Source: Bacteroidota bacterium
GTDB taxonomy: Bacteria > Bacteroidota > Bacteroidia > J057
DNA: 37,852 nucleotides
Direction: 5' to 3'
Assembly (NCBI GenBank): GCA_020438265.1
Contig: JAGQVA010000004.1
Coordinates: 1 to 37,852 of the forward strand
Within the stretch, counting starts at the first letter, position 1. Every line of letters starts with the position of its first letter. The notes under the pieces were generated by a model. It made no database searches, had not been told where the DNA came from, and was given only the letters and a program-made list of their open reading frames with translations. Positions 8,578 through 37,852 of the stretch are shown piece by piece. Made by a program: the position numbers and the translations under genes.

Positions 8578-9921
8578 ATGTATTTTGATCAATCCATCGA
8601 AACGCTGCCCCAAAGTCAGCTCCGTCAGTTACAAAGCGATCGCCTAAAAAAGCTGGTGAAATATGTATATGAACGAGTCCCATTCTACAAAAACAAATGG
8701 GACGAGGCAGGGATTCACCCTGACCAAATTAAAGGAATCGAAGACCTTCACCGGCTCCCTTTTACCCTAAAAACTGACCTGAGAGATACCTATCCCTTTG
8801 GTATGTTTGCCGTTCCGATGGATCAGGTAAGCAGAATTCATTGTTCCAGCGGTACCACAGGAAAACCCACAGTAGTAGGTTATACAAAAAACGATCTGGA
8901 TCTTTTCGCAGAAGTTAACGCCAGAAGTCTGGCTGCCGCCGGAGCAAAACCAGGTATGATGCTCCATAATGCTTATGGATATGGGCTGTTTACGGGAGGA
9001 TTGGGTCTTCATGCTGGCGCTGAAAGACTGGGAATGAATGTAATTCCTGTTTCCGGAGGAATGACAGACCGTCAGTTAATGATCCTTCAGGATTTTGGGC
9101 CAGAAGTGATTTGCTGCACACCGTCTTATGCGCAAAGATTGACGGAAGAAATACGAAAACGCAATATTCCTGTTGATAGCCTAAATTTAAAATACGCCGT
9201 ACTAGGCGCAGAGCCCTGGACAGAAGTTATTCGCCATGAAGTCGAAAAAGGGCTCAATATTCAGGCGACAAATATTTATGGGTTGAGTGAAATTATTGGC
9301 CCGGGAGTATCGCAAGAGGCAGTAGAAGAACGTGGAACTGGCAGCCACGTCTGGGAAGATCATTTTTTTCCTGAAATAGTTAATCCCGACACCGGGGAAG
9401 TTTTACCTGAGGGGAAAGATGGGGTTCTTGTATTTACCACCCTCACCAAGGAAGCCTTTCCGGTCATACGATATTGGACTAATGATATCTGTTCTCTTTA
9501 CTACGACAGAGATTCTCAACGAACCCATATTAAAATGGGACAGATCAAAGGTAGGGCTGATGATATGCTGATTATTCGGGGAGTAAATTTCTTTCATACA
9601 CAGGTTGAAGCGCTCATTGAAGATATTCCTCATTTGGCCCCACATTATCAGGTGATTGTATCTCGTGAAGGAGCTATGGATCAGGTTGAAATCAAAATCG
9701 AACTCGATCCTGACTATCAAAAAGAAACCCTGCCTGCCATTTCCGCTGAAGACAATTTATCCAATCAGGAAAACATTCGCCAACTTACCAATCATCTGGC
9801 AAAAAAAATCAAAGACAATATAGGGATTACCATGAAGGTGGAAATTAAGCCTGGGAATTCTATTCCACGTAGTGAAGGTGGAAAACTCAGTCGGGTTGTT
9901 GATTTGAGAAAGGGAAAATAA
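8578..9921 (+). CDS. paaK: Phenylacetate-CoA ligase family protein
   Basis: 447 residues, the usual length for PaaK. This is an adenylate-forming enzyme that activates phenylacetate, or a related aryl acid, to its CoA thioester with ATP. The P-loop-like signature SSGTTGKP lies at 90-97. Also visible are 'YGLSEIIGPGVSQE', 'WTNDICSLYY' and the C-terminal 'GRADDMLIIRGVNFF' and 'GKLSRVVD' segments, the last holding the catalytic lysine region. No other paa genes (epoxidase paaABCDE, paaZ) are in the window, so it may be a stand-alone activator of another aryl acid, as many Bacteroidota copies are. The ATG at 8578 gives the normal 'QLRQLQSDRLKKLVKYVYERVPFY' beginning. Confidence 0.9.
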   Translation: MYFDQSIETLPQSQLRQLQSDRLKKLVKYVYERVPFYKNKWDEAGIHPDQIKGIEDLHRLPFTLKTDLRDTYPFGMFAVPMDQVSRIHCSSGTTGKPTVVGYTKNDLDLFAEVNARSLAAAGAKPGMMLHNAYGYGLFTGGLGLHAGAERLGMNVIPVSGGMTDRQLMILQDFGPEVICCTPSYAQRLTEEIRKRNIPVDSLNLKYAVLGAEPWTEVIRHEVEKGLNIQATNIYGLSEIIGPGVSQEAVEERGTGSHVWEDHFFPEIVNPDTGEVLPEGKDGVLVFTTLTKEAFPVIRYWTNDICSLYYDRDSQRTHIKMGQIKGRADDMLIIRGVNFFHTQVEALIEDIPHLAPHYQVIVSREGAMDQVEIKIELDPDYQKETLPAISAEDNLSNQENIRQLTNHLAKKIKDNIGITMKVEIKPGNSIPRSEGGKLSRVVDLRKGK

Positions 9922-24854: not shown

Positions 24855-26105
24855 ATGAAAGTTGCAACGCAAATATTATCTGCTACAGAAGCTTTTGCCA
24901 GAGATATTCTGACAAATAAGATCGACAAGGAATTTACCTATCATACACTGCCTCATACTGTGCAGGTGGTAGATGCTACGGAAGAAATCGGCAGGCATAT
25001 TGGTCTTACCAATTCAGAGATTGAAGTACTTAAGGTCGCAGCCTGGCTACATGATCTGGGATATGTCAGAAAATATATCGGACATGAAAGGGATAGCATT
25101 GCTATCGCCCGTGAATTCCTTACTGAGCAAAATGCAGATGAAGCATTAATCGTAAAAGTAGAAAATCTGATTGAGGCTACGATTCTCGAACAGAAACCCA
25201 GAAATACCCTTGAAGAAGTAATTAAAGATGCGGATTTATTTAATCTGGCCACACCTGAAGCCCTCGAAAATTCGCAGATGATTCGTTATGAGTGGAAGGT
25301 TTTTTGTAACCGGACTTTTTCGGATAAAGAATGGGATGAGTTTAATTATAATTTCTTCAGAGAACACGAATACTACACCCCTTATGGAAAAGAGTATCTC
25401 GATCCCATTAAACAGTCCAACATCAAAAAACTGAAAAAAGCACTTAAGAGAAGAAGACAAAAGGAAAACGAAACGGAAAAGGCCCTGCTGGTCATGCAAT
25501 TGGAAAAGCAGGAATCCAGGGTCGATAAGCTAAAACGAAAACTCAAAAAGGCCAAACAACAGAGGCCCGACCGGGGAATTGAGACGATGTTTCGCACCAC
25601 TTATCGTACACACATGAACCTGAGTTCTATTGCCGATAATAAAGCCAACATTTTACTTTCGATTAATGCAATTATTGTCTCCATCGTACTGACTGATTTA
25701 ATCGGAAAACTCGAAGACTATGCATTTATTTTGATCCCTGGCGCAACTTTGTTGCTGGTTTGTATGGTTACCATCGTTTTTGCCATTCTAGCGACTCGTC
25801 CCAAGGTGAGTTCAGGGATTTTTACCAGAGAAGATATTCTGGAGAAAAAAACCAATTTGTTATTCTTTGGGAACTTCTTCCGAATGGATCTTATTGATTT
25901 TCAGTGGGGAATCAAACAAATGATGAACGATGCAGAGTATCTCTATGGAAGTATGTCCAAGGATATTTACTTTCTGGGGAAAGTGCTGGCGAAGAAATTT
26001 CAATTATTGAGGATCGCCTATAATGTGTTTATGTATGGGATGATTGTCGTGATTTCCATCTTCATTATTACGTTTTCTCTTCATGAGATGGGGATTTTGA
26101 AGTGA
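24855..26105 (+). CDS. HD phosphohydrolase fused to a Pycsar-effector (PycTM, DUF5706) membrane domain
   Basis: 416 residues. Residues 1-175 are an HD domain: H34 in 'YHTLPHTVQVV', H66-D67 in 'AWLHDLGYVRK', and D127 in 'VIKDADLFNL'. Residues about 188-240 are a highly charged coiled coil. Residues about 245-410 match the PycTM/DUF5706 domain: 'RTTYRTHMNLSSIADNKANILLSINAI', membrane segments about 262-280, 289-312 and 394-409, and the conserved 'FFGNFF' with a following helical part. PycTM domains are the membrane-disrupting effectors of Pycsar defence, activated by cCMP or cUMP. Here the effector half is joined to a putative phosphohydrolase and no cyclase gene is seen in the window. A TATCTTTA word before the ATG is a weak promoter candidate. 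Domain calls are good; role is inferred. Confidence 0.9.
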   Translation: MKVATQILSATEAFARDILTNKIDKEFTYHTLPHTVQVVDATEEIGRHIGLTNSEIEVLKVAAWLHDLGYVRKYIGHERDSIAIAREFLTEQNADEALIVKVENLIEATILEQKPRNTLEEVIKDADLFNLATPEALENSQMIRYEWKVFCNRTFSDKEWDEFNYNFFREHEYYTPYGKEYLDPIKQSNIKKLKKALKRRRQKENETEKALLVMQLEKQESRVDKLKRKLKKAKQQRPDRGIETMFRTTYRTHMNLSSIADNKANILLSINAIIVSIVLTDLIGKLEDYAFILIPGATLLLVCMVTIVFAILATRPKVSSGIFTREDILEKKTNLLFFGNFFRMDLIDFQWGIKQMMNDAEYLYGSMSKDIYFLGKVLAKKFQLLRIAYNVFMYGMIVVISIFIITFSLHEMGILK

Positions 26106-27249: not shown

Positions 27250-28077
27250 ATGAAAAGAGAAGTATTAATTCTTTGCGCAATTGCGTTAATCACCTTATTC
27301 TCAAGCTGTAAAAAAGAGCCACTTGAACCTCCGGTAGAAATTTCTCCTCAAAATCCTCTGGTTATGGATCTTAACACGTCTCAGGATTTTTCTGCCAATC
27401 TTCCGGTTTTCTGGACATTCTCTCATCCCAACGCTGGCGAAATTGAAACAAATGGGACTTTTACATCTATGGACAGTATTGGCCATTATTACCTCATTGC
27501 TACGAGTCAGACTGATGAAACAAATCGGGATACCGTCTCTGTCAGAGTAAGCAATCGAGCGGATATACTCAATGAAATCATATCGGGCGGATATGTCATT
27601 TATTTGCGGCACGCTATTGCTACCGTTGGTGCAGACTCGCTAAATTTTCCACTTGGATGGCAACGTAGCTGTAATTCCGATACAGCACGACAACTTTCTC
27701 CGGAAGGAATCACTCAGGCAAAGGATCTTGGCGCTGCCTTTAGAGGGCTTAAGATTCCTTTAGCTGAGAAAATTTTCACCAGTGAATTTTGCCGTTGTCT
27801 TCAAACGCCCGAGCTCATGGATCTGGGCAAACAAACTTATACAGAAAAAGACCTTACTTTTCATGTGTATGGAGAAGATGAGCGGCATCAAAAAACCCTA
27901 AACTTTATTGACAGCTTAAATCCAGTGAATGAGAATTATTTAGTGGTTTCCCATTCCTTTGGGCCAGGTTCTACGTTGCCTCAGATTGAGCAAGGATATG
28001 CAGCGATTTTTAAGCCTCAGTCGGGACCGACGTTTGTGGCGATTGTGAGGGATGATGAGTTGATTATTTTGAAGTAG
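27250..28077 (+). CDS. Lipoprotein with Ig-like domain and histidine phosphatase domain
   Basis: 275 residues. Lipoprotein leader ends 'TLFSSC' (C20). Residues about 30-102 look like an Ig-like (Big-type) beta domain: 'ISPQNPLVMDLNTSQDFSAN', 'NAGEIETNGTFTSM', 'GHYYLIATSQTDETNRDTVSVRV'. Residues about 108-275 are a histidine phosphatase domain: R120-H121 in 'YLRHAIA', R182 in 'SEFCRCLQT', and H235 in 'VVSHSFGPG'. The usual RHG is RHA here, as in many secreted members. The phosphohistidine enzyme would act outside the inner membrane on an unknown phosphoester. A second, cytoplasmic-type histidine phosphatase lies 540 nt downstream. Confidence 0.85.
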   Translation: MKREVLILCAIALITLFSSCKKEPLEPPVEISPQNPLVMDLNTSQDFSANLPVFWTFSHPNAGEIETNGTFTSMDSIGHYYLIATSQTDETNRDTVSVRVSNRADILNEIISGGYVIYLRHAIATVGADSLNFPLGWQRSCNSDTARQLSPEGITQAKDLGAAFRGLKIPLAEKIFTSEFCRCLQTPELMDLGKQTYTEKDLTFHVYGEDERHQKTLNFIDSLNPVNENYLVVSHSFGPGSTLPQIEQGYAAIFKPQSGPTFVAIVRDDELIILK

Positions 28078-28206
28078 TCAGAACCCCCTCGCACCTTGCA
28101 CCGCCCCCTCGAAGAGGTTGGCTCGCGCAGGCCAAGGCATTCGCCTTATAATTTAGCTATCTCTGATAGCACTTTGATATTTAAAGACACAAAACCCCAT
28201 ACATTA
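28078..28206. other. Intergenic stretch with GC-rich small palindromes
   Basis: After the lipoprotein gene, CCTC-GAA-GAGG (28109-28119) and TTGGC...GCCAA (28120-28137) can form two small hairpins in a locally GC-rich patch, followed by an AT-rich stretch before the next ATG. This may be a transcription end or a degraded repeat. No convincing protein is seen here; an in-frame ATG at 28096 before the next gene would give a non-hydrophobic extension. Confidence 0.4.
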
Positions 28207-28617
28207 ATGAAAAACAACCTACAATCGAGATTACTACTTATCACGACTCTGATCAATATGATTTGTATTGGAGGATTTTTAGTCAAATTTTCAGAGCCAA
28301 ACGAAAATGCCCAGGAAATTGAATCCTATCAGGAAAGAATTGTAAATATTGAGTCGGAGAATGAAGAATTGAGACAAAAGTGTATTACTCTTAGAAAAAT
28401 GTTAAGCGAACACTCTCATAGGGAACCAAGCACATACCAAATTAAAGAATACAAAAAAGAAATCGACATGCTCGTCAAAGATAATGTCATAATCACCGCT
28501 AGTTATGATCAACTTATACTCTGTCTCAAGGAGAAACTGGCTTCCAGTTCTGATAACCATTTATCCGAATCAGAAATAGAATTTTGTATTAAATCTTCCC
28601 AAGAGGAATCATTATAA
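28207..28617 (+). CDS. Small membrane-anchored coiled-coil protein
   Basis: 136 residues from the ATG at 28207, chosen because an earlier in-frame ATG (28096) lies in the GC-rich palindromic patch and would precede a natural N-terminal membrane anchor. Residues about 8-27 form that anchor ('RLLLITTLINMICIGGFL'). A coiled coil follows (about 35-65, 'IESENEELRQK...'), then a charged helical tail with 'YKKEIDMLVKDNVI'. No known family. Only 1 nt separates its stop from the next gene start (histidine phosphatase), so the two are most likely co-translated and may work together. Confidence 0.65.
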   Translation: MKNNLQSRLLLITTLINMICIGGFLVKFSEPNENAQEIESYQERIVNIESENEELRQKCITLRKMLSEHSHREPSTYQIKEYKKEIDMLVKDNVIITASYDQLILCLKEKLASSSDNHLSESEIEFCIKSSQEESL

Positions 28618-28618
28618 C

Positions 28619-29179
28619 ATGAAGTTACTCCTAATCCGACACGGCCAACCAGACTATTCTCTAATCAAAGACAAAAAATTCCAGGGGCATGGCCTCGATC
28701 TCGCGCCTTTATCTGAAGAAGGAAAAAACCAAATCAAACAGGCTGCTAAAAATCCCTTACTCAAACAAGCAGAAATCATTCTATCCTCCCCCTACACCCG
28801 CGCCTTACAAACCGCAGCCATTATTTCTTCAAACTTACAATTACCCATCAAAGTAGAAATAGATCTCCACGAATGGATACCCGACAAGACTTTCACCTAC
28901 CAGACAAAATCGGAAATGAATTCATTACACCGGGATTTCTACCGCAATCAAGGCGTATATCCTCCCGGAAATACGAAAAAATGGGAAAGCCTGAATGCCC
29001 TGCAAACCCGCGTAGCCAAAGTTTTTGGCAAATACGCTGGAAAATATAAAACCATCATCGTTACTTGCCACTCTATGGTTATTAAGTCAATCGCCTATCA
29101 GCGAAACATTGACTACGGAGAATTAGTTGTTGCGGATTATGATCCCCAAAAACCATTAACTGAATGGGTATTTGAATAA
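28619..29179 (+). CDS. Histidine phosphatase family protein (phosphoglycerate-mutase-like)
   Basis: 186 residues, cytoplasmic. The catalytic RHG motif lies at residues 7-9 ('LLIRHGQPDYS'), the second arginine in 'LSSPYTRALQTA', the acid E in 'LHEWIPDK', and the second histidine in 'IIVTCHSMVI'. The family contains mutases, phosphatases and SixA-like phosphohistidine phosphatases. The short 'YDPQKPLTEWVFE' tail and the loop with 'FQGHGLDLAPLSEEG' are like uncharacterised Bacteroidota/cyanobacterial members. It starts 1 nt after a coiled-coil membrane protein, which may tether it to the membrane (inference). Confidence 0.88.
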   Translation: MKLLLIRHGQPDYSLIKDKKFQGHGLDLAPLSEEGKNQIKQAAKNPLLKQAEIILSSPYTRALQTAAIISSNLQLPIKVEIDLHEWIPDKTFTYQTKSEMNSLHRDFYRNQGVYPPGNTKKWESLNALQTRVAKVFGKYAGKYKTIIVTCHSMVIKSIAYQRNIDYGELVVADYDPQKPLTEWVFE

Positions 29180-29458: not shown

Positions 29459-29959
29459 ATGTACAAAAAACCAAACGCTTACTGTTCCTACTGTGGAACC
29501 CAATTTTCAGAAACAGAAGATTTCCCAAAAACCTGCACACACTGTGAAAACACAACTTACCTCAACCCCACGGTAGTTGCAGTGGTCGCTTTGCCCGTTG
29601 ATGACGGAATCCTCGTCATACGCCGTGGTGAACCAGCCGGTGAAGGCGAGCTTGCCTTTCCAGGCGGATTCATCGAATCCGGAGAATCATGGGAAGCAGG
29701 TGCCGCCCGCGAATTATGGGAAGAAACTCATGTCAAAATCTCTCCGGATGATATTACCCATTTTGCGACCAGAAGCATTCCCAATGGAAAAATTATTCTG
29801 ATTTTTGGCCTGGCCAAACCCATGCGAGAGAAAGATTTACCTCCGTTTACCCCAACTAATGAAACGACGGAGAGACTGGTTTTGAGAGAATATGAAGATT
29901 TGGCTTTTCCCATTCATTCGCAGGTATTACGGCAGTTTTTTGAGTTACGGAAAACTTAG
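29459..29959 (+). CDS. Nudix hydrolase with N-terminal zinc ribbon
   Basis: 166 residues. A zinc ribbon with C9-C12 and C26-C29 precedes a Nudix domain whose box runs from G70 to V92: G-x5-E76-x7-R84-E85-L-W-E88-E89-T. The zinc ribbon plus Nudix layout resembles NADH pyrophosphatase (NudC), but the SQPWPFPxS motif of NudC is absent. The substrate, a nucleotide diphosphate derivative, is therefore open. The start at 29459 gives the complete ribbon. No signal peptide. Confidence 0.9.
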   Translation: MYKKPNAYCSYCGTQFSETEDFPKTCTHCENTTYLNPTVVAVVALPVDDGILVIRRGEPAGEGELAFPGGFIESGESWEAGAARELWEETHVKISPDDITHFATRSIPNGKIILIFGLAKPMREKDLPPFTPTNETTERLVLREYEDLAFPIHSQVLRQFFELRKT

Positions 29960-30024: not shown

Positions 30025-31002
30025 ATGAAACAATTATTGCTATCCATTTTTAGTCTCCTTTTCATCCAGTTTTCATTCGCACAAAACAATGAAAAATACG
30101 CTGAGCTAGTCAAAGAAGCCTGGAGTCTGTATCAAACAAAAGAATTCCAGCAATCAGCCGAAAAATACAAAGAGGCATTTGACCAACTCGAAGGAAAAGC
30201 CTATCCCAATGACCGGTATAATGCGGCCTGTTCTTATGCTCTGGCCACAGATGTTGAAAATGCTTTTTTTCATTTATTCAGGCTGGCTGAAAGCAGAGTA
30301 AAGTACAAAAATTATGCACATATTTCCATAGATCCCGATTTGGAAATTCTTCATAAGGACGAACGATGGGAGAAATTATTGACCATCGTAAAAGCGAATA
30401 AAGAAGAATATGAGAAGGATTTCGATAAACCACTGGTAGCCATGCTTGATACGATCTATCAGTTGGATCAAAGCTACCGAATGCAAATTGGGGACATTGA
30501 AGCCAAATACGGTCGGGATTCTGAAGAAATGAAAAAACACTGGGCCTTGATCAATCAGACAGATTCGGCAAATCTGATCAAGATTAAGGAAATTCTCGAC
30601 ACACGGGGTTGGTTGGGTGCAAACATTATTGGCGGACAGGGAAATAGTACCTTGTTTCTTGTCATTCAGCATGCTGATCTGGAAACCCAGGAAAAGTATT
30701 TGCCCATGATGCGGGAAGCAGTAAAACAAGGGAACGCCAGTCCGGGGAGTCTGGCTTTGCTGGAAGACAGGGTAGCACTTAGGCAAGGAAAACGCCAGAT
30801 TTATGGTAGCCAGATTGGCAGAGATCCAGAAACGGGCGAGCATTATGTTTTGCCTTTGACAGATCCTGAAAATGTGAATGAGCGAAGAAAGGAGGTCGGG
30901 TTGGGGCCAATTGAAGATTATATCAGCAACTGGAATATGACCTGGAATGTTGAAAAGCATAAGAAACGGACAGAGCAGATAGAATCAGAGAAAAAAGAAT
31001 GA
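30025..31002 (+). CDS. Exported TPR-like protein with DUF6624 domain
   Basis: 325 residues. Signal peptide about 1-20 ('LLLSIFSLLFIQFSFAQ'). Residues about 25-125 form TPR-like helices ('AWSLYQTKEFQQSAEKYKEAF', 'YNAACSYALATDVENAFFHLFRLAE'). The C-terminal half is DUF6624: 'LDTRGWLGANIIGGQGNSTLF', 'ALLEDRVALRQGKRQIYGSQI', 'VLPLTDPENVNERRKEVGLGP'. Exported, periplasmic. DUF6624 is frequent in Bacteroidota with no known reaction. Its stop overlaps the next start by 4 nt (ATGA at 30999-31002), making it the first gene of a likely five-gene operon to 33295. Confidence 0.88.
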   Translation: MKQLLLSIFSLLFIQFSFAQNNEKYAELVKEAWSLYQTKEFQQSAEKYKEAFDQLEGKAYPNDRYNAACSYALATDVENAFFHLFRLAESRVKYKNYAHISIDPDLEILHKDERWEKLLTIVKANKEEYEKDFDKPLVAMLDTIYQLDQSYRMQIGDIEAKYGRDSEEMKKHWALINQTDSANLIKIKEILDTRGWLGANIIGGQGNSTLFLVIQHADLETQEKYLPMMREAVKQGNASPGSLALLEDRVALRQGKRQIYGSQIGRDPETGEHYVLPLTDPENVNERRKEVGLGPIEDYISNWNMTWNVEKHKKRTEQIESEKKE

Positions 31003-31313
31003 AAAACCAACCTGTCGGCTTATTCACCTCAATCGAAGAAATCCGAGTCTTGCTACCAAACCCAAGCCGAAAAGAATGGCTAACGGAAGTCATCTGCACA
31101 AATAGTGCTGGATTACGAGGAAAATTATTGCTTTCATCTGTAGATAGATATGCAAATATTTGGGCTCTTACTCATGATTTTGAAAAAATGGAGTTGACGG
31201 ATCTCTTTGATGGAATTACAAAATATGAATTTGGCAGATTTCATCTAAGTATAAAAAGTGGAGAGTATACTGATGAACAGTGGTTTTTGGATGCTAAATT
31301 TATTGAAATATAG
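30999..31313 (+). CDS. Hypothetical protein in the DUF6624 operon
   Basis: 104 residues, no signal peptide and no membrane segment. Beta-rich with 'WLTEVICTNSAGLRGKLLLSSVDRYANIWALTHDFEKMELTDLFDGI' in pieces and a C-terminal 'QWFLDAKFIEI'. I do not recognise the family. The 4-nt overlap with the DUF6624 gene and the 53-nt gap to the next gene support translation from one transcript. Small size and setting recall immunity or helper proteins, but that is guesswork. Confidence 0.65.
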   Translation: MKNQPVGLFTSIEEIRVLLPNPSRKEWLTEVICTNSAGLRGKLLLSSVDRYANIWALTHDFEKMELTDLFDGITKYEFGRFHLSIKSGEYTDEQWFLDAKFIEI

Positions 31314-31366
31314 ACCTCATCATTTACAACCTCTCAATCAGACTCTAACAAATAAATGCGCAAAAT

Positions 31367-32053
31367 ATGAATCCAGATTTTGAAGAATTTAAGCGCGACG
31401 TTTCCTGGTTTATAGACCGTAAAAAGCAGGTAGAAATAATCACGGAAAATTCTCCTTTTCAATTAAGCCTCGAATTCGCAAATACGTTTCCCAAACTTAC
31501 CCGATTATTGAAGATTGCGAGAGTTGTGGAAATAAATATGAATAATGACAGCTTCAAACTGGCTTCATGGACCAATAAAAACCAACAGCCTTTTGGATGG
31601 TTAATCAAAAAGGAGCAGCAAGGTGAGCTACCTCTTATTCCCAACCATCGACTGCTACTAGAAGAAATGGGTGGGATTATAGAAAGATATAATGAGCCAG
31701 AGAATTCATGGAGTAATAATCATGAATTTATGTTTCTGGAATCGGGGTGTGCATTAGGTATTAATGATTGGGACGAATACTATGAAGGTTGCTGTAAGTT
31801 CGAAGACCTTGAGCCAATAGATTATAAAGGGTTTATTTCTTTCGCCCAGGAAGCCAATGGAAATATCACATTGTATAACCCTATAAATAAAGCTGTGATG
31901 CTATTTGCTACTGACCATTCCTTTGACAATGTTGAGTTTGTAAAAGACCAGCCTGAATATACATTTCATACAATTAATGAAGTGGCTGAATTTAAAGACT
32001 ATGTTGAATTATTAGCTCATGAATGGTTGGAGAATATTATTTACACACAATGA
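31367..32053 (+). CDS. Hypothetical protein, possibly SUKH/SMI1-like
   Basis: 228 residues, cytoplasmic. The pattern 'HRLLLEEMGGIIERYNEP', then a tryptophan/aspartate-rich middle ('GINDWDEYY'), then 'GNITLYNPINKAVMLFATDHSFDNVEF' and a closing 'FKDYVELLAHEWLENI', resembles the SMI1/KNR4 (SUKH) fold used by many polymorphic-toxin immunity proteins. I cannot confirm this by alignment. It overlaps the next gene by 4 nt (ATGA at 32050-32053). No toxin gene is adjacent. Confidence 0.7.
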   Translation: MNPDFEEFKRDVSWFIDRKKQVEIITENSPFQLSLEFANTFPKLTRLLKIARVVEINMNNDSFKLASWTNKNQQPFGWLIKKEQQGELPLIPNHRLLLEEMGGIIERYNEPENSWSNNHEFMFLESGCALGINDWDEYYEGCCKFEDLEPIDYKGFISFAQEANGNITLYNPINKAVMLFATDHSFDNVEFVKDQPEYTFHTINEVAEFKDYVELLAHEWLENIIYTQ

Positions 32054-32700
32054 AAACAGAAATTACAGAAGGAATAAAAAATCATAAAGAATTCGGTGAA
32101 TTGAGAGAGTTGATTGTCAGATTCAAAGACCAGGGAGGGAAACAAAGAGAAGCGTTACAGATTTTAGAGGAAATTCGCCAGGAATTTAAAGATGACGAAG
32201 AAAAAGAAGATCTGGTTTTGGAGTTATTGGACTATGTAGCTGGATGGTGCCAACCCCAATATCGGATCTGGGAAGACCAACTGATTTTCATAAAAAGCGA
32301 TCATGATATTACCGGAAGAAGTTTGATTATCGAAGAAGATGAAAATTCGATTTGGGCTTATTTGACCTTACCCAATGAAATGGACATTGACAAAGATTGC
32401 TTTTTGGCAAGCAGGCATAAAATCACTGAGAAGATAGACAACATGGATTATTGGAGAAGTCGGCAAATGCCTCCCCCCATGACTCAGGAATACTCAACCA
32501 ATCATGGCTCTTTTCAACAAATTGAAGAAAAAGACATTAACATCAGATGGATTGATCAGGGAAATGTCATCATTGAGCTAAAAGGAACTCCTTTTCTTTT
32601 TTTTCATCATGATTTTAGAAAAGGGTTTTGTAAATCGATCAAAAAAGATGGGGGCTATGGCAAGGAATGGGATGAAGAGATTTATCGAAAAATGCTATAA
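32050..32700 (+). CDS. Hypothetical immunity-like protein
   Basis: 216 residues from the ATG at 32050, which gives the usual 4-nt overlap with the gene before; a start at 32023 would add only 9 residues. The N-terminal part ('KDQGGKQREALQILEEIRQEF' in pieces, then 'EDLVLELLDYVAGWC') has the acidic helical look of small immunity proteins. The rest is beta-rich with 'WAYLTLPNE' and 'IIELKGTPFLFFHHDF'. Family not named with confidence. Spacing of 7 nt to the next gene keeps it in the same operon. Confidence 0.7.
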   Translation: MKTEITEGIKNHKEFGELRELIVRFKDQGGKQREALQILEEIRQEFKDDEEKEDLVLELLDYVAGWCQPQYRIWEDQLIFIKSDHDITGRSLIIEEDENSIWAYLTLPNEMDIDKDCFLASRHKITEKIDNMDYWRSRQMPPPMTQEYSTNHGSFQQIEEKDINIRWIDQGNVIIELKGTPFLFFHHDFRKGFCKSIKKDGGYGKEWDEEIYRKML

Positions 32701-32707
32701 CTAATAG

Positions 32708-33295
32708 ATGAAACTACTCAATAAAATATCACGATGGTTTCTGCTACCCAGTGATAGAAAAATCAACAAACTGATTAAGGATTTTGCTGCCAAAACAAAA
32801 ATCATTCAGTCGGATCACCACGGTTTTTCGATAACCAACTTTGATGAGGAAGGCAAAGCTACCATTTTGTGGAAAGACCTGGAAGATGTAAAAATTGAAA
32901 ACGGAAGGTTAATCACTATTCAACATAGAAAAACCAAACATGTCCTCACCGCAGATGATATTGGCTGGTATCAATTGATTCAACAAGTCCCACCTGGATT
33001 TAAAAGTTATGATTACGCTTATGTGAAGAATTTCTTTTTAAATCTAACTGGTTGCAAGATTTGTGGTTTAATGGCGGTGGAAGATAAAGAATGCCTCGCT
33101 TGCGGTAGTGCAGTTTGGAATCCCGAAATGCTCGACAGTTATGATTCCGAAGCAGAATACCTCAAACAGGAACAAATATGTCTGTTTGAACCCATTGATG
33201 ATGAAAAAATTGATATCAGTAATCGTCCTGAAAATGGTTTTCAATCAGACCCAACCTGGAAACCACTCATTTCCCGGGAAGACCTGGAAGGGTAG
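32708..33295 (+). CDS. Hypothetical protein with a C-terminal zinc ribbon
   Basis: 195 residues. The first half ('FSITNFDEEGKATILWKDLEDVKI' in pieces) looks like a PH-like/YcxB-type beta domain. It is followed by a four-cysteine ribbon, C116-C119 in 'CKICG' and C129-C132 in 'CLACGSAVW', and an acidic tail. No signal peptide. It is the last gene of the run starting at 30025. No function can be assigned. Confidence 0.7.
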   Translation: MKLLNKISRWFLLPSDRKINKLIKDFAAKTKIIQSDHHGFSITNFDEEGKATILWKDLEDVKIENGRLITIQHRKTKHVLTADDIGWYQLIQQVPPGFKSYDYAYVKNFFLNLTGCKICGLMAVEDKECLACGSAVWNPEMLDSYDSEAEYLKQEQICLFEPIDDEKIDISNRPENGFQSDPTWKPLISREDLEG

Positions 33296-33366: not shown

Positions 33367-34188
33367 ATGGCTCTGATATCTCATGATCTGATTAAAAGTC
33401 TAGGCATAAACAAAAAACTAACCATGCTTCTGGTCGGAAGCATGGTTATGATTCTCTCCGGAATTGGACAGGATTTTATCAGTTCTCTCATAAACCACCA
33501 TTCATTCTACTTATCCGAATCCTCCCTTTACAAAACAATTTGGCTCCTTTATTTACCATTACTGCCGATAGGTAATTACATTTCCAACAAAATCAACCAA
33601 TTATCTACGTTAAGTTCATGGGTTTTAAATGCCCTCTTTTTCTTATTTCTCTCTTTCGTTCATATTTGTCTGGCTTCACTATTCATTCATTTTTTATCGG
33701 CGTTATTGTTTTCCCACACTTACACTCCCTTACAGGCCTTCCGGTTTTTCGTGGCTGATCAATTTTACCTTATCTGGATGATTTATATGGGTTTTCCACT
33801 CCTTCAAAAACGGCGTAAAAAGCAGAATCCGACTATAACAGAAACTGCCCAACCTGAAAATTATGCTTCAGTTATCTCTATAAAAAATAATGGAACAACC
33901 GAACTCATTGATGTTGAACAAATTATTTATATCACCTCTGATCGGCCTTACATTGCCGTGATAACAAATAGTAAAAAGCACTTACATCAGGCAAGCTTAA
34001 AAAGTATCATAGCCAAACTGGATCAGAATCTCTTCTACAGAGTTCACCGTTCCACCATTATCAATATCAAGTATATTTCCCGCCTTCATTCCCGCTCCAA
34101 TGGAGACTATGATATTGAAATGAAAAATGGGGAATTTGTCAGAATGAGTCGGAATTATAGTCAGGAATTAAAGTCCCTTATTAAATAG
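33367..34188 (+). CDS. Membrane-bound LytTR-family transcription regulator
   Basis: 273 residues. Four membrane segments (about 19-35, 55-73, 85-115, 128-147) are followed by a linker and a LytTR DNA-binding domain (about 170-273): 'VISIKNNGTTELIDVEQIIYI', 'LHQASLKSIIAKLDQNLFYRVHRSTIINIKYI', 'MKNGEFVRMSRNYSQELKSLI'. The layout without a receiver or kinase partner suggests a membrane one-component regulator that senses in or near the membrane. A second protein of the same layout is encoded at 35480. Targets may include the dioxygenase-like gene between them (inference). Confidence 0.88.
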   Translation: MALISHDLIKSLGINKKLTMLLVGSMVMILSGIGQDFISSLINHHSFYLSESSLYKTIWLLYLPLLPIGNYISNKINQLSTLSSWVLNALFFLFLSFVHICLASLFIHFLSALLFSHTYTPLQAFRFFVADQFYLIWMIYMGFPLLQKRRKKQNPTITETAQPENYASVISIKNNGTTELIDVEQIIYITSDRPYIAVITNSKKHLHQASLKSIIAKLDQNLFYRVHRSTIINIKYISRLHSRSNGDYDIEMKNGEFVRMSRNYSQELKSLIK

Positions 34189-36737: not shown

Positions 36738-37852
36738 ATGAACTGGAAAAAAATCATCAAATACTTCGTTATTCTCCTACTTACAGTGTCAGCTATTTTC
36801 ATCTTTTTAGCCAATAGAGACATGAAGAAAATCTATGGCGGTCATACCCAAAGGGCATCTCTCGAACATACCCATTTTTCAGATTTCCACACCATAATCA
36901 AGGATATCAACATTTTATCCACAGATGGGGAAACCTTTTTACCAAGCCAAACTGTGAGAATAGAAAAGGGAATCATTGTTGCGATAGACTCGGTCTTAGA
37001 GATACCCGATGGTGCCCAAATCATTGACGGAAAAGGCAAATATTTAATCCCCGGCCTGACCGATGCACATGTGCATTTATTCAAAAGCTCGAATGATTTA
37101 CTTCTCTACCTGGCTAATGGAATAACCCAGATTCGGGAACTAATCGGAGAAGAAGATCATTTGCTTTGGAGAGAGGAAATAAAGACTGGTCGATTGGGCC
37201 CGGATATGTACATTGCTTCGCCTAGATTAGGCAGTTTTGGTACATTTGAAGGGTTTTTCATGGAATGGTCGCAAGGATTTCAGAATATCAAAAACCAGGA
37301 TGATGCGGTTAAATATGTTACCCGATTTAAAGAAAAAGGCTACGACGCAGTCAAACTTTACAGCCATCTGAACAGGGAAAGTTACCTGGCAATTTGCCAA
37401 ATCGCCGATAGTCTGGACATGGATGCAGTTGGGCATATTCCATGGAGTGTGGAATGGGCAGACATCATGGCTTCTCACCAGTCAGATATCTCACATTTGG
37501 AAGAAATCATGAATGCGTTGCGAAGAGAATTTGGGCGAATAGAAGGCGAGGAAGGAGCTGCAAAGTTTTTAGCCTATGTGGATAACCGAAGTAAAGAAAT
37601 GGCAGAGGATTTATTGGCTAATAACATGTCTGTAACGACAACCTTGTGGTTAACGGAGAGTTTTGTTCGCCAGAAATTTGACCTCAACAAAGTTTTAAAA
37701 GAAGTAGAACTGGAATATGTAAATCCCGGAATCAGCGAATGGTCAGAAAACATTCCCCAGGGCGGGTTGGGCTGGCTCCCTGAAGTCAATCGGTATCAAC
37801 TCAATGGCAACTTATCTGAAGAGGAACTGGATGGTCAGAAAATATTTTGGAC
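36738..37852 (+). CDS. Amidohydrolase-family protein with N-terminal membrane anchor (cut by the right edge)
   Basis: The frame stays open from ATG 36738 to the end of the window, giving 371 codons; the C-terminus is missing. In-frame ATGs at 36732 and 36684 are alternatives. 'WKKIIKYFVILLLTVSAIFIFL' is an N-terminal anchor or signal. The metal-binding core of the amidohydrolase superfamily is visible: H111-H113 in 'DAHVHLF', K206 in 'AVKLYS' (likely carbamylated), H233 in 'GHIP' and H253 in 'SHLEEI'. Imidazolonepropionase/prolidase-like secreted members have this set. The active site would be outside the inner membrane. Substrate unknown. Confidence 0.88.
   Translation, partial: MNWKKIIKYFVILLLTVSAIFIFLANRDMKKIYGGHTQRASLEHTHFSDFHTIIKDINILSTDGETFLPSQTVRIEKGIIVAIDSVLEIPDGAQIIDGKGKYLIPGLTDAHVHLFKSSNDLLLYLANGITQIRELIGEEDHLLWREEIKTGRLGPDMYIASPRLGSFGTFEGFFMEWSQGFQNIKNQDDAVKYVTRFKEKGYDAVKLYSHLNRESYLAICQIADSLDMDAVGHIPWSVEWADIMASHQSDISHLEEIMNALRREFGRIEGEEGAAKFLAYVDNRSKEMAEDLLANNMSVTTTLWLTESFVRQKFDLNKVLKEVELEYVNPGISEWSENIPQGGLGWLPEVNRYQLNGNLSEEELDGQKIFW

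Follow-up and report, generated by a model that had tools for sequence, protein, structure and literature searches.

Heterogeneous polyimmunity loci, as described in the part of Zhang et al. 2012 (PMC3482391) used here, lack toxins and consist of closely spaced genes in one orientation, with varying content. According to the same part of the source, polyimmunity proteins tend toward two- or three-gene loci, and a genome that has them might lack extended loci of at least four genes. Orphan immunity proteins with SUKH domains protect Bacteroidales (PMC12247911, in the sections used here), and the antidote of Tse2 in Pseudomonas aeruginosa, Tsi2, is described in the sections used of PMC3325213 as strongly acidic and helical, binding Tse2 by an acidic patch. 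Here we analyze a 37,852-nucleotide (nt) stretch of DNA from a Bacteroidota bacterium of the order J057 (assembly GCA_020438265.1, contig JAGQVA010000004.1), hereafter the window, which is the whole contig (it ends at 37852) of a 7.2 Mb genome in 1667 contigs. It holds five adjacent genes on the + strand, here called A to E (30025 to 33295), which a sequence-only reading had taken for either an orphan immunity island or a system joining an exported DUF6624 protein with cytoplasmic partners. We consider it likely that B to E form a toxin-less heterogeneous polyimmunity locus, with D as a polyimmunity protein and A as a neighbor.

The locus resembles those of PMC3482391, as far as the part of that source used here goes, in its tandem, same-strand, closely spaced genes with putatively different folds and no toxin, and D is a fused two-domain protein. 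It differs in that the libraries searched contain no family that B to E match, and only C and the N-terminal module of D have evidence of their own. Like the rAID system, B to E are candidate toxin-less orphan immunity genes in Bacteroidota that include a SUKH-type member; however, Pfam identified no recombinase among the main open reading frames (ORFs) between 22.6 and 36.3 kb, so we do not apply the rAID label, and B to E have no link to an effector of a type VI secretion system.

Gene D pairs an acidic helical module, related to a gene overlapping a toxin ORF, with a beta-rich module

Gene D (32050 to 32700) encodes 216 amino acids (aa) from an ATG at 32050, which we took as its start (the mechanical ORF begins nine codons earlier, at 32023). 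Its AlphaFold2 (AF2) model (pLDDT, 89.3; pTM, 0.73) comprises four helices within residues 2 to 64 and a beta-rich domain at residues 79 to 206. We accordingly distinguish an N-module (32050 to 32283; aa 1 to 78), an acidic four-helix domain with an isoelectric point of 4.6, in which we recognize the acidic helices noticed in the sequence-only reading, and a C-module (32284 to 32700; aa 79 to 216). No protein matched both halves of D in any search, and separate proteins matched each half.

Relatives of the N-module were found at three loci, where they cover residues 20 to 79 (L024), 7 to 82 (L023), and 7 to 75 (L038) of D, and the motif G[WY]C.P....W is kept at their ends. In Edaphocola flava (L024/L040), the relative is a 77-aa protein (1432 to 1665) whose gene overlaps by 22 nt an ORF of 378 aa (317 to 1453) with an RHS core (TIGR03696; E = 8.4e-12) and, at its C terminus, a Tse2 ADP-ribosyltransferase domain (PF18648; E = 6.8e-9; 36.9 bits, with the cut-off at 26.6). 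Cognate immunity genes usually lie in such a position, overlapping the end of a toxin ORF. A second RHS-like piece lies further on at the same locus, which makes the relative and the Tse2 ORF a C-terminal array cassette. In Flavobacterium frigidimaris (L023/L026/L039), the relative lies within five small same-strand genes, a run that also gave a weak match to SMI1_KNR4 (E = 0.014, below the cut-off), and no toxin was recognized by eye across 16 kb. The third relative, on a contig of a Kofleriaceae metagenome-assembled genome (L038), had 42% identity to the N-module and an E value of 2e-14 among the candidates. There the module forms the end of a 307-aa ORF (892 to 1812) with two DUF6193 domains (PF19692; E = 2e-21), whose third-position G+C is 0.824, against 0.711 in a longer ORF on the opposite strand. 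This ORF adjoins a DndB-like gene (PF14072). The N-module is thus joined to different partners, the C-module of D and DUF6193, a pattern to be expected of polyimmunity proteins; DUF6193 itself is not known as an immunity domain.

The C-module, from residue 79 onward, was matched at L002 to L005 and L022, and it stands alone as a short protein at L009, L010, L011, L012 (in shortened form), and L022. The relative at L010 (7335 to 7907) begins with a lipoprotein-like signal (LLGC), and the module may also be exported there. Two family assignments fell below their cut-offs and were set aside, namely, DUF2251 for the C-module (one of six members; E = 0.0076) and Tox-REase-5 for the relative at L022 (E = 0.023). 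Structural searches with the D model (Foldseek and VIA-align) returned middling matches, mostly blades of beta-propellers, with a best Z of 6.9 over residues 77 to 215, and barely tested the helical N-module. In profile searches of the Protein Data Bank (PDB), the N-module gave 25 rows headed by designed helical proteins and 14-3-3, which we attribute to composition and not to kinship, since no single stretch passed for the strongest rows.

The N-module recalls Tsi2 as characterized in the sections used of PMC3325213, being likewise small, acidic, and helical, with a relative whose adjacent toxin ORF has a Tse2 domain. In contrast to that pair, the toxin here would be delivered by an RHS protein, and no sequence or structure match linked the N-module to Tsi2, in searches that barely tested the N-module by structure; we regard the likeness as a parallel and not as a demonstrated kinship. 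The N-module would most likely bind and neutralize Tse2-type ADP-ribosyltransferase toxins delivered by the RHS proteins of rivals, and the beta-rich C-module would act on a second toxin.

Gene C encodes a protein with a predicted SUKH-like fold

Gene C (31367 to 32053; 228 aa) is a candidate cytoplasmic immunity protein. Among 22 genomes of the order, the only match was C itself, and 395 genomes of the phylum contained two besides C. In a different genus, 15 of 148 genomes gave 16 matches, a count that includes the two from the phylum; one of the 16 is a fragment. The fragment (38 residues, G496) was excluded from the alignment, and two homologues were trimmed at a C-terminal extension; this extension, of about 120 aa, is TPR-like by eye (L043 and L045, each at 1174 to 2226). 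None of the 16 members had a credible Pfam or NCBIfam family, and a sequence search of the PDB with C returned nothing. A scan of genome contigs with C gave no match. Neither C nor the N-module of D was matched in scans of viral contigs, and tblastn against plasmids found no match to C or D.

We then modeled C with AF2 from 16 sequences (pLDDT, 90.1; pTM, 0.89) and compared the model structurally with 982 chains. The top row was YobK of Bacillus subtilis (2prv; Z = 8.1 over 129 residues; 3.3 Å; 10% identity), a match that leaves about 35 N-terminal residues of C outside, followed by FBXO3 (9kbf; Z = 7.4), a protein of the SMI1/KNR4 family (3d5p; Z = 5.6), and Atu4351 (6itw; Z = 4.8), with the next chain at 4.2, where a Z under 8 may reflect just a common arrangement. 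We take YobK, FBXO3, and Atu4351 to carry SUKH-type domains, and YobK is presumably the immunity protein of YobL. We are persuaded by the shared superfamily of the top rows. The sequence-only reading had already called one of the products SUKH-like; this agrees with the predicted fold of C and not with the sequence profiles, which gave a SUKH match for none of the 16 members. For this reason, we describe C as a SUKH-like protein of an uncatalogued family and do not file it as a SUKH member. The structural check proposed for each product gave no Foldseek match for C at E ≤ 0.001 and only the middling ones for D, and it was the further comparison of C that placed SUKH-like proteins in the top four rows.

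In genome G424 (L057), the roughly 2 kb flanking a C homologue on each side hold an ORF with a SUKH-1 domain (PF09346; E = 1.7e-20) together with a match of the WapI-like kind that is weak (E = 0.044, below the cut-off). In G033 (L072), the homologue is about 4.4 kb from an ORF with an RHS core (TIGR03696; E = 1.4e-11). By eye, an ankyrin-repeat-like ORF follows the C homologue in 5 of the 16 cases (L048 to L051 and L055), and ankyrin-repeat immunity proteins are listed in the part of PMC3482391 used here.

Genes B and E are candidates by position

Gene B (30999 to 31313) encodes a 104-aa orphan with no family above threshold and no credible relative in the 22 genomes of the order or the 395 of the phylum. 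Its sole match in the latter (E = 0.009), within an ORF that by eye is hexosaminidase-like, was judged to be chance. Gene E (32708 to 33295; 195 aa) carries the zinc ribbon noticed earlier, a CxxC...CxxC arrangement at 33053 to 33103 (C116, C119, C129, and C132). Two relatives from one genus (L032 and L033; 283 and 287 aa) align mainly with the C-terminal half of E and keep all four cysteines. Weaker matches to E were judged to be chance, as one overlaps an adenosine-deaminase-like ORF (L034) and two cross stops (L035 and L036). Assigned by position only, B and E are plausible immunity proteins; the notion of an orphan immunity island is thus supported for C, by its SUKH-like model, and for D, by the Tse2-type toxin pairing seen for its N-module in E. 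flava and by the DUF6193 fusion, and is plausible for the other two.

Together, B to E would be co-directional genes for structurally unrelated cytoplasmic antidotes, probably carried on one message, each of which would bind and block one kind of incoming polymorphic toxin; C would belong to a new family of SUKH-like antidotes. We infer in addition that the four genes were acquired from outside.

Layout and composition of the locus

The coordinates agree with the arrangement described in the sequence-only reading: overlaps of 4 nt between A and B and between C and D, and gaps of 53 nt between B and C and 7 nt between D and E. In each of the five genes, the coding frame had the top codon score of the six frames, with codon usage trained on 15 other genes of the window. 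The layout of the five genes stands, but the borders of a putative five-gene operon are only inferred, since the flanking genes share the orientation: a NUDIX gene (29459 to 29959) ends 65 nt 5' of A, and a LytTR gene (33367 to 34188) begins 71 nt past E. The borders are thus not sharp, and overlaps of 4 nt are common in bacteria.

The G+C content is 0.356 in B, 0.361 in C, 0.367 in D, and 0.384 in E, compared to 0.417 in A. The 15 other window genes range from 0.364 to 0.459, and the LytTR gene 3' of E is also low (0.364). B to E are contiguous and match no toxin family, and, in line with the sequence-only reading, Pfam found no toxin family among the main ORFs between 22.6 and 36.3 kb. PADLOC gave no match to anti-phage defense families for A to E. 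B, C, D, and E each occur only once in the genome. Among the order's remaining 21 genomes, B, C, and E had no match and D had distant partial matches only. When 108 fetched loci from outside the window's own stretch, many of which overlap one another, were searched in six frames, none held relatives of two of the genes B to E.

B to E might instead have come together by chance, as small genes that are unrelated and serve ordinary functions of the cell, given that B and E lack a toxin link and that most C homologues stand alone. We find this very improbable, because two independent links to immunity, the predicted fold of C and the toxin pairing of the D N-module, occur in adjoining, overlapping genes, and the G+C content is lower in all of B to E.

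It is also conceivable that B to E are the remnant of a polymorphic toxin locus from which RHS or similar toxins were lost. The N-module of D has a relative whose gene sits right at the end of an RHS toxin ORF, and the genome contains two RHS-core loci, as the sequence-only reading had suggested looking for. Yet a scan of the main ORFs that surround the locus revealed no toxin fragment, and neither RHS locus holds relatives of B to E: a six-frame search of the fetched stretches of both found none, other carriers of toxins not being searched. Such a remnant would be hard to tell from a stockpile of antidotes, with the same protein working either way, and we rate it as improbable.

Several observations weigh against a polyimmunity locus. 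For C, hhalign against one SUKH-1 protein gave a probability of 0.4%, Foldseek returned only E values of 0.7 and above, and a Z of 8.1 is about the level often reached by models that have no clear match; these add to the missing SUKH profile matches. Most of the 16 C homologues lie, by eye, amid unrelated genes and not beside recognized toxins. The toxin pairing of the D N-module is a single case, with no recognized toxin adjacent to L023, L038, or D itself, and the E. flava RHS ORF begins within the core, which makes its cassette a displaced or interrupted one. Relatives of the C-module are free-standing, one of them lipoprotein-like, and those of E come after a peptidase-like gene and not beside a toxin; for B there are no relatives to compare. 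The lack of a recombinase and of B to E relatives at the RHS loci of the genome counts on the same side. In addition, a fused protein such as D fits less well in a four-gene locus, judging from the part of PMC3482391 used here. With these points taken into account, a toxin-less heterogeneous polyimmunity locus remains the reading we favor.

Gene A is most likely a neighbor of the immunity genes

Gene A (30025 to 31002; 325 aa) begins with a signal-peptide-like stretch, as judged by eye from the sequence, in keeping with the earlier view that the first product is exported. A TPR_END region (NF047558 TPR_END_plus; E = 8.4e-9) lies N-terminal of its DUF6624 domain (PF20329; E = 7.3e-22; 78.1 bits against a gathering score of 27), which occupies 30454 to 30927 (aa 144 to 301). 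Seven polar residues of this domain (Q215, H216, D248, R249, Q258, Q263, and R288 in A numbering) are invariant in all 16 aligned sequences. They resemble an active site, and A may be an enzyme.

DUF6624 occurs in 4 of the 22 genomes of the order, that of A included, with five genes in total. The closest relatives with the same TPR and DUF6624 architecture in the order share 45% (L018) and 56% (L019) identity with A. Their genomes (G007 and G012) contain no match to B, C, or E and no D match beside the A relative. At L018 (4654 to 7877, in G007), the relative is flanked by two maturases, one of the ATP-grasp kind (TIGR04192; E = 1.3e-90) and one of the SPASM kind (TIGR04193; E = 3.6e-96), in a cluster of the grasp-with-spasm type for ribosomally synthesized and post-translationally modified peptides (RiPPs). 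For graspetide clusters, DUF6624 has been suggested to form a class of enzymes yet to be discovered (PMC13097080); A shares the domain of those proteins, but no graspetide gene was found around it among the ORFs scanned.

On plasmids, 38 records matched the DUF6624 part of A and 30 matched the DUF6624 relative from L057. The neighbors varied in nine annotated regions, drawn from gene tables that are incomplete, and no polymorphic toxin or immunity annotation stood beside DUF6624 there, many neighbors being unscanned hypothetical proteins. On a Klebsiella plasmid, a class 1 integron carries a DUF6624 gene (L107, 4869 to 5414) as a cassette flanked by dfrA1 and aadA1, and the domain therefore moves as a mobile cassette.

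The five genes could nevertheless be one functional unit, in which an exported DUF6624 protein, possibly an enzyme, works with cytoplasmic partners, for instance in a two-compartment defense against delivered toxins or peptides. The 4-nt overlap of A and B would fit this, as would the DUF6624 ORF of G424 (8700 to 9290), which has an N-terminal hydrophobic stretch and lies 572 nt upstream of the C homologue on the same strand, with only an 84-aa ORF between them, and another DUF6624 ORF about 5.4 kb from the C homologue in G033. DUF6624 genes were thus present in 2 of 16 regions (312 kb) around C homologues, compared to five genes in the 22 genomes of the order, where both of the former were first seen by eye and served as profile seeds and the background rate in their genus was not measured. 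However, the two closest relatives of A come without B to E, the nine plasmid regions have other neighbors (many of them the hypothetical proteins mentioned above), the G+C content of A is unlike that of B to E, and the G424 arrangement would also be explained if both types of gene cluster in immunity islands. We consider such a unit unlikely, and the suggested system of DUF6624 and cytoplasmic partners finds no support as a conserved unit. The sequence-only reading had named scattered genes in relatives as evidence against itself, and to the letter the genes are scattered; yet scatter is expected of polyimmunity loci.

The G424 locus keeps a weaker version of this link alive, in which exported DUF6624 proteins would be recurrent partners of SUKH-like and other immunity proteins, as envelope-side enzymes that modify or destroy toxins or RiPP-like peptides, while B to E would catch what arrives in the cytoplasm. 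This proposal draws on the seven invariant polar residues, the graspetide-type cluster at L018, and the proximity to a C homologue in G424; we give it little credence. Since the two closest relatives of A lack B to E and the contexts of DUF6624 are many, A is most likely a neighbor of the polyimmunity genes and not a part of their cassette.

Other features of the window

Upstream of the locus (27250 to 29179, + strand), two histidine-phosphatase-like genes, the first narrowly below the Pfam cut-off, flank a coiled-coil-like ORF. Further upstream, a gene at 24855 to 26105 (+ strand) encodes a fusion of an HD domain (PF01966; E = 1.3e-7) and PycTM, a Pycsar effector domain (PF18967; E = 5.7e-33). 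At the start of the contig (440 to 3667, + strand) lies a gene resembling the R subunit of type I restriction enzymes (PF04313 and PF18766).

Implications

For Bacteroidota, the locus provides a candidate antidote, open to testing, against Tse2-type toxins that RHS proteins deliver. It would also reveal a helical immunity module that is shuffled among proteins, occurring alone, in D, and behind DUF6193 domains. C would represent a SUKH-like family that is missing from the family libraries searched, and DUF6624 is found far outside graspetide clusters. Should D prove protective, the other half of the protein would point to a further toxin.

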